Shown: piece by piece, positions 20,706 to 25,905 of the stretch
How positions within the stretch are numbered: position 1 is the stretch's first letter
Layout of the letters: each line of letters opens with the position of its first letter
From: Promicromonospora iranensis
Lineage (GTDB): Bacteria; Actinomycetota; Actinomycetes; Actinomycetales; Cellulomonadaceae
DNA length: 64,000 nt
Assembly: GCF_028994805.1 (NCBI RefSeq)
Contig: NZ_JAJQQP010000010.1
Coordinates: forward strand, 62,001 to 126,000
Reading direction: 5' to 3'
Notes under the pieces: model-generated
Seen by the model: only the letters and a program-made list of their open reading frames with translations
Told to the model about the DNA's origin: nothing
Database searches by the model: none
Program-made: the position numbers and the translations under genes

Positions 20706-21008
20706 CTACGACGCCAGCCACTCCCGCGCGCCCCGGCCCGACCGCGCGGGCCGGACGGCGCCGTCGGCCTCGCTGATCTCCGCCCACACCGCGTCGAGCG
20801 AGAGGCCGAGGACCTCCGCGATCGCGGCGATCGTCGGGAAGGCCGGTGTCGCCACGCGGCCCGACTCGATCTTGCGGAGGGTCTCCGGGGAGACACGTGC
20901 GTCGAGCGCGACCTCGAGCATCGAGCGCTCGCCCCTGGCGCGACGCAGGAGGGCGCCGAGGCGCTGTCCGCGCTCGACCTCCGCGGGTGTGAGCGGCAAC
21001 CTGACCAT
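20706..21008 (-). CDS. XRE-family transcriptional regulator
   Basis: 100 aa with one lambda-repressor-type helix-turn-helix (LGALLRRARGERSMLEVALDARVSPETLRKIESGR, about residues 17-51). The start ATG 21008 has a TAGAAT hexamer 6 nt upstream and no ribosome site, so it is probably leaderless. Divergent from the M24 peptidase gene across a 66-bp gap with two direct repeats that are candidate operators. Confidence 0.85.
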   Translation of the reverse strand: MVRLPLTPAEVERGQRLGALLRRARGERSMLEVALDARVSPETLRKIESGRVATPAFPTIAAIAEVLGLSLDAVWAEISEADGAVRPARSGRGAREWLAS

Positions 21009-21023
21009 GGCCCGATTCTAATA

Positions 21024-21047
21024 CCGGGATAGTATGGCCGGGATAGT
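21024..21047. promoter_or_regulatory. Direct-repeat operator between the XRE and M24 genes
   Basis: CCGGGATAGT occurs at 21024-21033 and 21038-21047, a 14-bp period. The first copy is flanked by ATA and AT (ATACCGGGATAGTAT is a near-palindrome). It lies over both divergent promoters and is the probable XRE binding site. Confidence 0.6.
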
Positions 21048-21074
21048 TATTGGGAAGCATAAGAAGGGCGCCAC

Positions 21075-21851
21075 ATGATCGAGATCCTGAACCCCGCCGA
21101 GCTGGCCCGAGCACGGGGTGCGGGCACCCTGGTCGCGACGATCCTGCAGACGCTGCGGACGCGGAGCACGGTCGGCACGAACCTCCTGGACATCGACCAG
21201 TGGGCCCAGGCGATGATCGTCGACGCCGGTGCGCAGTCCTGTTATGTGGACTACGCACCGGCGTTCGGGCGCGGGCCGTTCGGCCACTACATCTGTACCG
21301 CCGTCAACGACGCGGTCCTCCACGGCAAGCCGCGCGACTACCGGCTCGCGGACGGCGACCTGCTGACCCTCGACCTCGCCGTCTCCCTGGACGGCATCGC
21401 CGCGGACTCCGCGATCAGCTTCGTCGTGGGCGGCACCCAGCCCGCCGAGAGCCTGGCGATGATCGAGACGACCGAGCGCGCGCTGCGGGCGGGGATCGCC
21501 GCGGCCCGCCCCGGAGCCCGCATCGGCGACATCTCCCACGCCATCGGCGCGGTGCTGAGCGCCGCGGGGTATCCGATCAACACCGAGTTCGGCGGGCACG
21601 GCATCGGCTCGACGATGCACCAGGACCCGCACGTCCCCAACACGGGACGCCCGGGCCGCGGGTTCACGCTGCGCCCGGGGCTGCTGCTCGCGCTCGAGCC
21701 GTGGGTCATGGTGGATACCGCCGAGCTGGTGACCGACGCCGACGGGTGGACCCTCCGCAGCGCGACGGGCTGCCGGACGGCGCACAGCGAGCACACCATC
21801 GCCATCACCGACGGCGAACCGGAGATCCTCACGCTGCCGACCCCGGCGTAG
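21075..21851 (+). CDS. M24-family metallopeptidase (methionyl aminopeptidase-like)
   Basis: 258 aa with the pita-bread metal site intact: His83 (VLHGKP), Asp100 (LLTLDLAVS), Asp111 (ADSAIS), His175 (FGGHGIG), Glu208 (ALEPW) and Glu239 (HSEHTI). The order and spacing match type I methionine aminopeptidases, but the N-terminal region is divergent (CYVDYAPAFG) and there is no zinc-finger extension. Since a housekeeping MAP is expected elsewhere, this is likely an accessory paralogue. Start ATG 21075. Divergent from an XRE repressor. Confidence 0.9.
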   Translation: MIEILNPAELARARGAGTLVATILQTLRTRSTVGTNLLDIDQWAQAMIVDAGAQSCYVDYAPAFGRGPFGHYICTAVNDAVLHGKPRDYRLADGDLLTLDLAVSLDGIAADSAISFVVGGTQPAESLAMIETTERALRAGIAAARPGARIGDISHAIGAVLSAAGYPINTEFGGHGIGSTMHQDPHVPNTGRPGRGFTLRPGLLLALEPWVMVDTAELVTDADGWTLRSATGCRTAHSEHTIAITDGEPEILTLPTPA

Positions 21852-21869: not shown

Positions 21870-21925
21870 CGAACGTAGGCCTGGTCGCCCCATGAGGGTT
21901 CATGGAGCGACCAGGCCTACGTTCG
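21870..21925. repeat. REP-like palindromic repeat / terminator hairpin, copy A
   Basis: Perfect 19-bp arms: CGAACGTAGGCCTGGTCGC (21870-21888) and its complement (21907-21925). Inside, after one mismatch, CCATGA and TCATGG form a further 6-bp stem with loop GGGT. The right arm GCGACCAGGCCTACGTTCG is present unchanged at 25887-25905. Lies between two convergent genes and could also terminate both. Confidence 0.85.
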
Positions 21926-21962: not shown

Positions 21963-22835
21963 TTAGTATGGGCAGGTGCTGCGGTACTCGCTGATCGTCG
22001 TGCTCGTGGACGGTGCCGGGCACAGGAACTGGTCGTAGCGCAGGTCGTCGTCGACGAAGCGCTTGAGCCAGGAGATGCTGTACTTGGCGATGGTCGTGTT
22101 GTCGGTGTTCGGCGCGAAGTGGCTGGCCCCGCGTAGCTCCAGGTACGCCTTGTCGGCGGTGCTGGGGAGGGACTGGTAGAACGGCTCCGCGTGCGAGCGG
22201 ACCGAGGCGATCGAGTCGTTCTGCGCACCGACGATGAGCGTGGGTGTGCTCACCTCGGGCCACGTCTTGTCCGTGTTCCACGGCGTCAGCGGGATGGCCG
22301 CCTGGAGCGACGGTCGGTCCTTGGCCGCCTCGAGCGATCCCCCGCCGCCCATCGAGTGACCCATGACGGCCAGCCGGTCGTCGTCGATCCGGCTCGCGAC
22401 CGAGCTGCGCGTCGTGAGGTAGTCCAGCGCCCTGAGCAGCTGGTCACCGCGGGAGGACGGCTGGTCCGAGGTGGTGATCGTGTCGATCGTGAAGACGACG
22501 AACCCCTGTGAGGCCAGCCGCGGGCCGAGCCAGGCCATGGTGGACTGCGAAGCCGTGTAGCCCGGGGCGACCGCCACCGCACCGAACGTGCCTGCGGTGG
22601 TGGTGGTCGGGTAGTAGATGGTGCCGCCACCGAAACCGGAGACGAGACGCGAGACGCTCACGTCAGCGACGGCGAACGGACCACGGCGCGCCTCGATGCT
22701 CGCCACGGTCGGGTCGGGACCACGTTCGTACGGGTTGTCGGCGGCGTGCGCGGCAGGCACGCTCACGACGGCGGTGCCGGCGAGCAGCAGCCCGGACACG
22801 AGCGCTGCACCAGCCTTGCGGATCAGATGTCTCAT
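21963..22835 (-). CDS. Secreted polyester hydrolase (cutinase/PETase-type dienelactone-hydrolase-fold enzyme)
   Basis: 290 aa from ATG 22835, which follows AAAGGGG. Sec signal ends near PAAHA (31). The mature N-terminus [11 protein letters not shown] and blocks [44 protein letters not shown] and [11 protein letters not shown] are those of Thermobifida-type cutinases and IsPETase. Catalytic triad Ser161 (GHSMGG), Asp207 (QNDSIA), His239 (GASHFAPN); oxyanion residues Tyr93 and Met162; aromatic-clamp Trp186; C-terminal disulfide Cys272-Cys288. The single disulfide and HFAPN place it with type I cutinases. Divergent TetR regulator upstream. Natural substrates are plant cutin or triglycerides; activity on PET is inference. 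Confidence 0.95.
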
Positions 22836-22886
22836 GAATTGCCCCTTTGCGATTGACAAGACAGCAACTGACGCAACTGACAGTAA

Positions 22887-22898
22887 GGTAGCTCTACC
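22887..22898. promoter_or_regulatory. Candidate TetR operator between the polyester hydrolase and TetR genes
   Basis: GGTAGCTCTACC: 5-bp perfect arms around CT in the 118-bp divergent promoter region. A direct repeat of CAACTGAC lies just beside it (about 22865-22882). Suggests joint control of both genes. Confidence 0.5.
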
Positions 22899-22953
22899 AA
22901 CCGGTCAAGACATTTCGTGGATTGATGCATGCGCACCTGACTAAGGTCGGTAC

Positions 22954-23574
22954 GTGAACGGGTACGTGGACGGCCGCAAGCTGCGCTTCGAACATCGCCG
23001 TGGGGAGGTCCTGCGCGCGGCGACCGAGCATGCGCTCGATCACGGCCTGGCCGGCCTGTCGCTGCGCAAGGTGGCCCAGACGGTCGGCGTCAGCCACGCG
23101 ACCCTGGTGCACCACTTCTCGACGAAGGACCAGCTGGTCGCCGAGATCGTCGACCTGGTGCTGACCCAGTCGCTCGCCCTCCCCGACCTCGCCGACGACG
23201 ACCCGGAACCGCTCGGGACCATCTGGCGCCGGGCCACGTCGGACCAGGGACGCCGCTACATCCGGCTGTTCACCGCGATCACCGGGCACGCCATGCACGA
23301 CAACCCGATGCTGCGCGACGCCGTGGCCCGGTCGATGCAGCAGCGGACGGCCCTGCTGGCCGCCGGCCTGGTACGGCACGGCTGCCCCGAACCGGAGGCC
23401 GTCGCGCTGGCCACCTCGCTGCTGTCGACGCTGCGCGGGCTGCTCGTCGACCTCCTCGTCACCGACGACGAGAAGCGCGTCCGGGCGGCGTTCGACGACC
23501 TGGCCACCGAGCTGGACCGGCGCAGCTCCGCCTGGCCGACGCCGGGCGCCGGGCCCACCCCGGCCGGGAGCTGA
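22954..23574 (+). CDS. TetR-family transcriptional regulator
   Basis: 206 aa. TetR N-terminal domain (RGEVLRAATEHALDHGLAGLSLRKVAQTVGVSHATLVHHFSTKDQL, about 15-62) and an all-helical effector domain. The start is GTG 22954: a TAAGGT hexamer is 6 nt upstream, consistent with a leaderless transcript. Divergent from the polyester hydrolase, its probable target; the inducer might be a breakdown product of the polymer, but that is inference. Confidence 0.9.
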   Translation: MNGYVDGRKLRFEHRRGEVLRAATEHALDHGLAGLSLRKVAQTVGVSHATLVHHFSTKDQLVAEIVDLVLTQSLALPDLADDDPEPLGTIWRRATSDQGRRYIRLFTAITGHAMHDNPMLRDAVARSMQQRTALLAAGLVRHGCPEPEAVALATSLLSTLRGLLVDLLVTDDEKRVRAAFDDLATELDRRSSAWPTPGAGPTPAGS

Positions 23575-25816: not shown

Positions 25817-25905
25817 GCGTCGAACGTAGGGCTGATCGCTCTATCAGCCCTCATGCCGCGACCAGCCCTACGTTCGACGCCTTGGGGCGACCAGGCCTAC
25901 GTTCG
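25817..25905. repeat. REP-like palindromic repeat, copy B plus an extra half
   Basis: Arms of 23 bp at 25817-25839 and 25858-25880 (core CGAACGTAGGGCTGATCGC and GCGACCAGCCCTACGTTCG, one mismatch), followed by a third arm GCGACCAGGCCTACGTTCG at 25887-25905 identical to the right arm of copy A at 21907. Sits between the MarR gene and a decayed CGNR gene and now supplies the last codons of that remnant. Confidence 0.85.

Follow-up and report, generated by a model that had tools for sequence, protein, structure and literature searches.

Gene organization of the cutinase locus

The window (the whole 64,000-nucleotide stretch of Promicromonospora iranensis DNA analysed here) carries a gene for a secreted type I cutinase, an esterase resembling PET hydrolases, and divergent from it a gene for a regulator of the TetR family, the two start codons being 118 bp apart (Table 1). 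The initial annotation had extended the cutinase feature to position 22898, but the gene stops at its ATG start codon at 22835, and the excess covers part of the promoter region. An alternative TTG start at 22859 appears in the program-made list of open reading frames. The TetR gene that had been paired with the cutinase is real, and the pairing proved to be conserved, so that it is now better founded than the sequence by itself could show. Because a -10-like TAAGGT ends so close to the start codon of this regulator gene, a leaderless mRNA is suggested.

Downstream, the cutinase gene converges with a gene for an M24 peptidase of the methionine aminopeptidase type, which together with a small HTH regulator gene, the two mutually divergent, occupies positions 20706-21851 and adjoins the cutinase. 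The hairpin between the convergent genes (z -8.75, core ACGTAGGCCTGGTCGC) is possibly a shared terminator lacking a U-run. Related copies of this hairpin occur in the window at 25824-25902 and, in the same genome, on contigs C23, C26 and C30; together they make up a small family of repeated hairpins that perhaps act as terminators.

Table 1. Coordinates of the features at the cutinase-TetR locus, numbered from the first base of the window.
Feature	Position	Strand	Basis
Hairpin, 26 pairs (one G-U), between the convergent cutinase and M24 peptidase genes	21870..21925	.	hairpin scan
Secreted type I cutinase / PET-hydrolase-like esterase, 290 aa	21963..22835	-	ORF list, profile matches, structure relatives, tree
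Signal peptide at the cutinase N-terminus, cleavage about between AHA and ADNPY			by inspection
-10-like TACTGT, 17 bp after TTGACC	22880..22885	-	comparative only
Operator-like palindrome TTGACC-GGTT-GGTAGA (TTGACCGGTTGGTAGA)	22893..22908	-	comparison of intergenic regions
-35-like hexamer TTGACC, first half of the palindrome	22903-22908	-	comparative
-10-like TAAGGT, ending 6 bp before the TetR start codon	22942..22947	+	by eye
TetR-family regulator, 206 aa, GTG start, divergent from the cutinase	22954..23574	+	ORF list, profiles, neighbour comparison, structure model

The cutinase is a member of the type I family

Membership of the type I, PET-hydrolase-like family, as first annotated, was supported by profile searches and by the solved structures most similar to the protein. 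Residues 31-289 matched PF12740 with an E-value of 4.3e-127 (423.4 bits against a cut-off of 28), and the NCBIfam model NF051441 for BHET hydrolase (BdeA) was passed narrowly, with 530.9 bits against an equivalog cut-off of 520. The nearest solved structures were PET40 and other PET hydrolases or cutinases, followed in sixth place by the lipase 1jfr, which we take to be the S. exfoliatus enzyme. The closest named relative among the matches listed (80 of 550 loci) is from P. iranensis and 97% identical.

All the catalytic and subsite residues named beforehand were found in the translation. The motif GHSMG at 159 provides Ser161 and Met162, QND at 205 provides Asp207 and SHFAPN at 238, which contains the HFAPN element, provides His239; these complete the triad Ser161-Asp207-His239, and GYTAS at 92 and PWN at 185 supply Tyr93 and Trp186. 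The protein has only two cysteines, both of them C-terminal, in agreement with the one C-terminal disulfide that had been claimed, a feature that we take as a criterion of type I. GHSMG, SHFAPN and the two cysteines together assign the protein to type I; IsPETase has GWSMG and SHSCAN. His160 and Phe240 presumably occupy the positions of Trp159 and Ser238 in IsPETase, again in the type I state. The cutinase is an ordinary new member of the known type I family; its PET hydrolase activity is putative and predicted from homology.

To place the enzyme among its relatives we used a tree of 104 rows, consisting of 99 non-reference sequences and five references whose branches are long. Nine loci (L001, L083, L084 and L094-L099) were omitted from this tree and from the palindrome count described below as repeats of included genes, judged by equal identity values or by their place. 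The cutinase fell among 100 rows with the actinobacterial cutinases and PET40, and apart from IsPETase, LCC, the Thermobifida enzyme and 8ETX. Within the tree PET40 groups with three Amycolatopsis cutinases.

The QNDSIA loop had been read as closer to the ENDSIA of IsPETase than to Thermobifida, and one might suppose from this likeness that evolution has specialised the enzyme for PET hydrolysis of the IsPETase type, all the more as its relative PET40 is termed a PET hydrolase in the excerpted text of PMC11169514. Overall identity contradicts the loop: it is 74.2% to PET40 (PDB 8a2c), 73.5% to 8ETX, 62.2% to the Thermobifida enzyme, 59.9% to LCC and only 50.2% to IsPETase. The full loop AQNDSIASV is confined, among the tree rows, to the window cutinase and L003, but ND stands at this place in 18 of the 99 non-reference rows and ENDSIA itself in two, and for this reason the likeness carries no phylogenetic weight. 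We rejected kinship to IsPETase on these grounds, and with His160 and Phe240 at what we take to be the Trp and Ser positions of IsPETase, evolution toward an IsPETase-type activity appears very improbable.

The TetR regulator and its conserved pairing with the cutinase

The regulator matched the profiles TetR_N (41.8 bits, cut-off 24) and TetR_C_13_2 (29.5 bits, cut-off 27), and its predicted structure is all-helical (pLDDT 87, pTM 0.77). A fold search with this model returned TetR-type regulators as the nearest solved chains, with 2np5_A, 27% identical, in first place and the multidrug-binding EbrR and dye-binding EilR among the close folds; this search of solved structures gave no clear hint of a ligand.

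Among the 80 loci listed, out of 550 encoding a relative of the cutinase, a homologue of the TetR protein (E<=1e-10) was present in six, always divergent from and adjoining the cutinase. Those six loci, among the matches listed, belong to two Promicromonospora, Kineococcus, Nocardioides, Kineosporia and an actinomycete MAG. L040, L051, L068 and L076 each contain a further weak match to the regulator, of 28-35% identity across 54-60 residues (E 2.5e-5 to 1e-3), located more than 1 kb past the cutinase. When we examined 13 Promicromonospora genomes, including that of the window, 11 had a PETase-family cutinase, and the TetR gene was found in exactly the three with the window-type copy.

A profile search through 396 genomes of the order gave 19 TetR matches, 13 of them strong (at least 216 bits); 11 of the strong matches stand beside a cutinase, one (L106) lies at a contig end and one (L101) is separate. 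There were also 35 weaker relatives, at most 154 bits each (six from the 396 genomes and 29 from a second search), and none of these has a cutinase within about 1.5 kb on each side. We could thus reject the chance neighbourhood of a common class of regulator. A TetR tree of 31 rows, 14 of them weaker relatives drawn from the 35, joins the strong matches in a single clade of 17 rows (support 100/99), and 15 of these 17 divergently adjoin a cutinase. The two exceptions are the regulator at the contig end and the one whose cutinase lies elsewhere, where the palindrome described below is kept at both genes.

We call a cutinase linked when a TetR gene of the window type stands divergently beside it, and by this definition 15 cutinases in the tree are linked and 84 unlinked. 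All 15 fall inside one clade of 27 rows (97/94), whose other 12 members are ten second paralogues from Promicromonospora, none with a TetR gene of the window type, L012, for which only 46 bp of upstream sequence were available, and the Cellulomonas cutinase L039, which has neither the TetR gene nor the strict palindrome in 462 bp upstream. Mapping TetR presence onto the cutinase tree requires four changes, three of them forced by well-supported branches, and a single gain of the regulator with later losses is possible. Comparison of the two trees by eye shows several groupings in common (Nocardioides with the MAG; L105 with L107; L102 with L104; L100 with L103 and L108), and these suggest that regulator and enzyme were inherited together. 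The trees also disagree in places: the L014 regulator, unlike its cutinase, groups with those of L032 and L009 (100/99), and for L004 the cutinase sits with the paralogues (98/87) but the regulator with that of the window.

The genome of the window has a second cutinase on another contig (L002, G000:C30:32210-33061), 64% identical to the window copy. It has no TetR gene, and when we considered whether the window TetR might control this copy as well, no palindrome was present upstream. Copies of this second type number ten, one per genome, among the 13 Promicromonospora genomes, and lie on a long branch.

A palindrome upstream of linked cutinases

Comparison of the intergenic regions of linked loci revealed a palindrome with TTGACC or TCTACC as the first half, a 4-bp centre, and mostly GGTCAA or GGTAGA as the second half. 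In the window its first half coincides with a -35-like hexamer. Because a consensus promoter scan of the region found no promoter site, the cutinase promoter is a proposal drawn from comparison.

A strict form of the palindrome (TTGACC/TCTACC-N4-GGT) occurs upstream of 12 of the 15 linked and none of the 84 unlinked cutinases, where mononucleotide shuffles predict 0.015 matches over the 15 linked regions for a pattern which, like the 20-base pattern used below, was composed after the sites had been seen. These searches covered stretches of 450 bp, shorter in two of the 84 unlinked loci (L012 and L013), and since the stretches begin at the start of the protein match they include some coding sequence in many loci. 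The three linked loci without the strict form, L105, L107 and L109, have close variants, and a looser pattern added a single weak match among the unlinked loci, L092. A conserved intergenic palindrome is thus tied to the presence of the regulator, as would be expected of a TetR repressor of the adjacent gene.

Genome G076 has the two genes on different contigs, the TetR gene (L101) on C11 and the cutinase (L151) on C15, and the palindrome is kept upstream of both the cutinase (TTGACCGGGTGGTAGAGCAA) and the regulator (TTGACCAAGTGGTAGAGCAA). Such retention favours a regulator acting in trans on the cutinase, and perhaps on its own gene too, unless the separation is too recent for a useless site to have decayed. 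The two matches in genome G104 lie on different contigs, that of the cutinase beginning 64 bp from an end and that of the TetR gene starting at base 129, which is consistent with a break in the assembly.

We then considered sites elsewhere. The 20-base pattern, derived from known sites but failing to find the one in G105, gave 14 matches in six genomes, compared with seven for a reversed-pattern control. Seven of the 14 begin with TTGACC or TCTACC and all lie at a cutinase or a TetR gene (two of them being one palindrome read on both strands); the other seven begin with TCGACC or TAGACC, a count no higher than the control. In G076 the cutinase and TetR sites are two of only three matches. The genome of the window contains 254 palindrome sites, eight without mismatch and 246 with one mismatch. 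All eight perfect sites were checked, and the seven other than that of the window lie inside longer open frames, which among these perfect sites speaks against control of other genes by this TetR; for one of them, L153, the exclusion is less firm because its frames show weak coding bias.

These results bear on whether the regulator mainly controls itself or some other process, such as efflux or a drug response, with the pairing a passive co-inheritance. The likeness of its fold to the multidrug-binding and dye-binding regulators would fit such a role. However, the G076 cutinase promoter keeps its palindrome though the genes are apart, the strict form is absent from every unlinked cutinase searched, and matches away from cutinase and TetR genes in the six genomes are no more numerous than in the reversed control, so that we consider this reading quite unlikely.

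A model for the regulation of the cutinase gene

Taken together, the comparison makes it probable that this secreted type I cutinase, an alpha/beta-hydrolase, is under its own divergent TetR repressor and is relieved by a product-like ligand. A TetR dimer would sit on the TTGACC-N4-GGTAGA palindrome over the -35 region and would thereby block the cutinase promoter. A product of ester-polymer hydrolysis, most likely a hydroxy fatty acid or a related acid, would bind the regulator and release it from the DNA, and the secreted esterase would then be made; the regulator may also control its own gene. Expression of the cutinase would in this sense be inducible.

Some members of the TetR family are activators, and neither the pairing nor the palindrome tells by itself whether the regulator represses or activates, so the palindrome might instead recruit TetR as a local activator that turns the cutinase on. 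Against this, the palindrome starts with the -35-like TTGACC in 12 of the 15 linked loci (the pairs L100, L103 and L108 have TCTACC as first half), and an operator over the -35 is typical of proteins that block RNA polymerase. We regard activation as unlikely and favour repression.

What PETase-like enzymes do for their native hosts has been little studied. The excerpted text of PMC12211005 makes the same point. The regulator-palindrome module is well supported by comparison, and in the open-licence literature we found no counterpart to it. Where descent and a shared palindrome link a regulator to a single enzyme, whatever releases the regulator would be the cell's sign that the enzyme is needed. 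The interest of the module is moderate and lies in bringing the natural substrate and inducer of PETase-like enzymes within reach of experiment, and the regulator could serve as a sensor of ester monomers. Tentatively, and with less confidence than for the repression itself, we suggest that this may be a new TetR subfamily whose sole job is to sense a breakdown product of a natural substrate (cutin-, suberin- or polyester-like) and to switch on a single PETase-family enzyme.

Comparison with known systems

For 75 of the 84 unlinked cutinases a crude rule based on codon bias selected the upstream neighbour, and ten of these neighbours, chosen by eye, were scanned with Pfam. Four of these ten (L005, L040, L067 and L068) are TetR_C_36 proteins, 16-25% identical to the window TetR; the rest are a glycosidase, a sigma factor, an alpha/beta hydrolase, an oxidoreductase and, in L047 and L059, proteins with weak AAA matches only. 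The TetR_C_36 regulators accompany cutinases of other clades, two of them in Amycolatopsis, the clade of PET40. The frames upstream of the cutinase in L047 (2802-4892, 697 aa, Lentzea) and L059 (2803-4824, 674 aa, Nocardia) are large and divergent, with AAA matches below the cut-offs, and could be regulators of the LipR sort.

The window cutinase resembles PET40 and the actinobacterial type I cutinases in family, catalytic residues and secretion. PET40 differs in grouping with the three Amycolatopsis loci, of which the two that were scanned (L040 and L068) each encode, on the cutinase strand and upstream of it, an unrelated TetR_C_36 protein, about 850 bp away in L068. With IsPETase the enzyme shares the protein family and the catalytic triad, but the subsite residues, the half-identical sequence and the position in the tree are different.

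The regulator shares its predicted fold and HTH domain with 2np5, EbrR and EilR, but identity is low and its apparent target is one secreted esterase. The initial annotation described inducible expression as rarely reported for these enzymes, and indeed our search of the open-licence literature found no report of a TetR regulator of a PETase-family cutinase. A dedicated regulator is nevertheless not new. The Streptomyces LipA/BdeA enzyme, for which the name BdeA is proposed in the excerpted text of PMC11169514, belongs to the same family (NF051441) and likewise has a dedicated regulator gene beside the enzyme gene, but according to PMC12134079 the lipA regulator LipR is an activator of the LuxR type encoded downstream in one operon, whereas the window has a divergent TetR. 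No such arrangement was found at the window cutinase, which has the convergent M24 peptidase gene downstream and the TetR gene upstream. In Vibrio, transcription of pet6 was highest with BHET, and the main text of PMC12211005, as excerpted, names no TetR. Given the TetR_C_36 neighbours, LipR for lipA and the BHET-responsive pet6, local control of these enzymes probably arose more than once.
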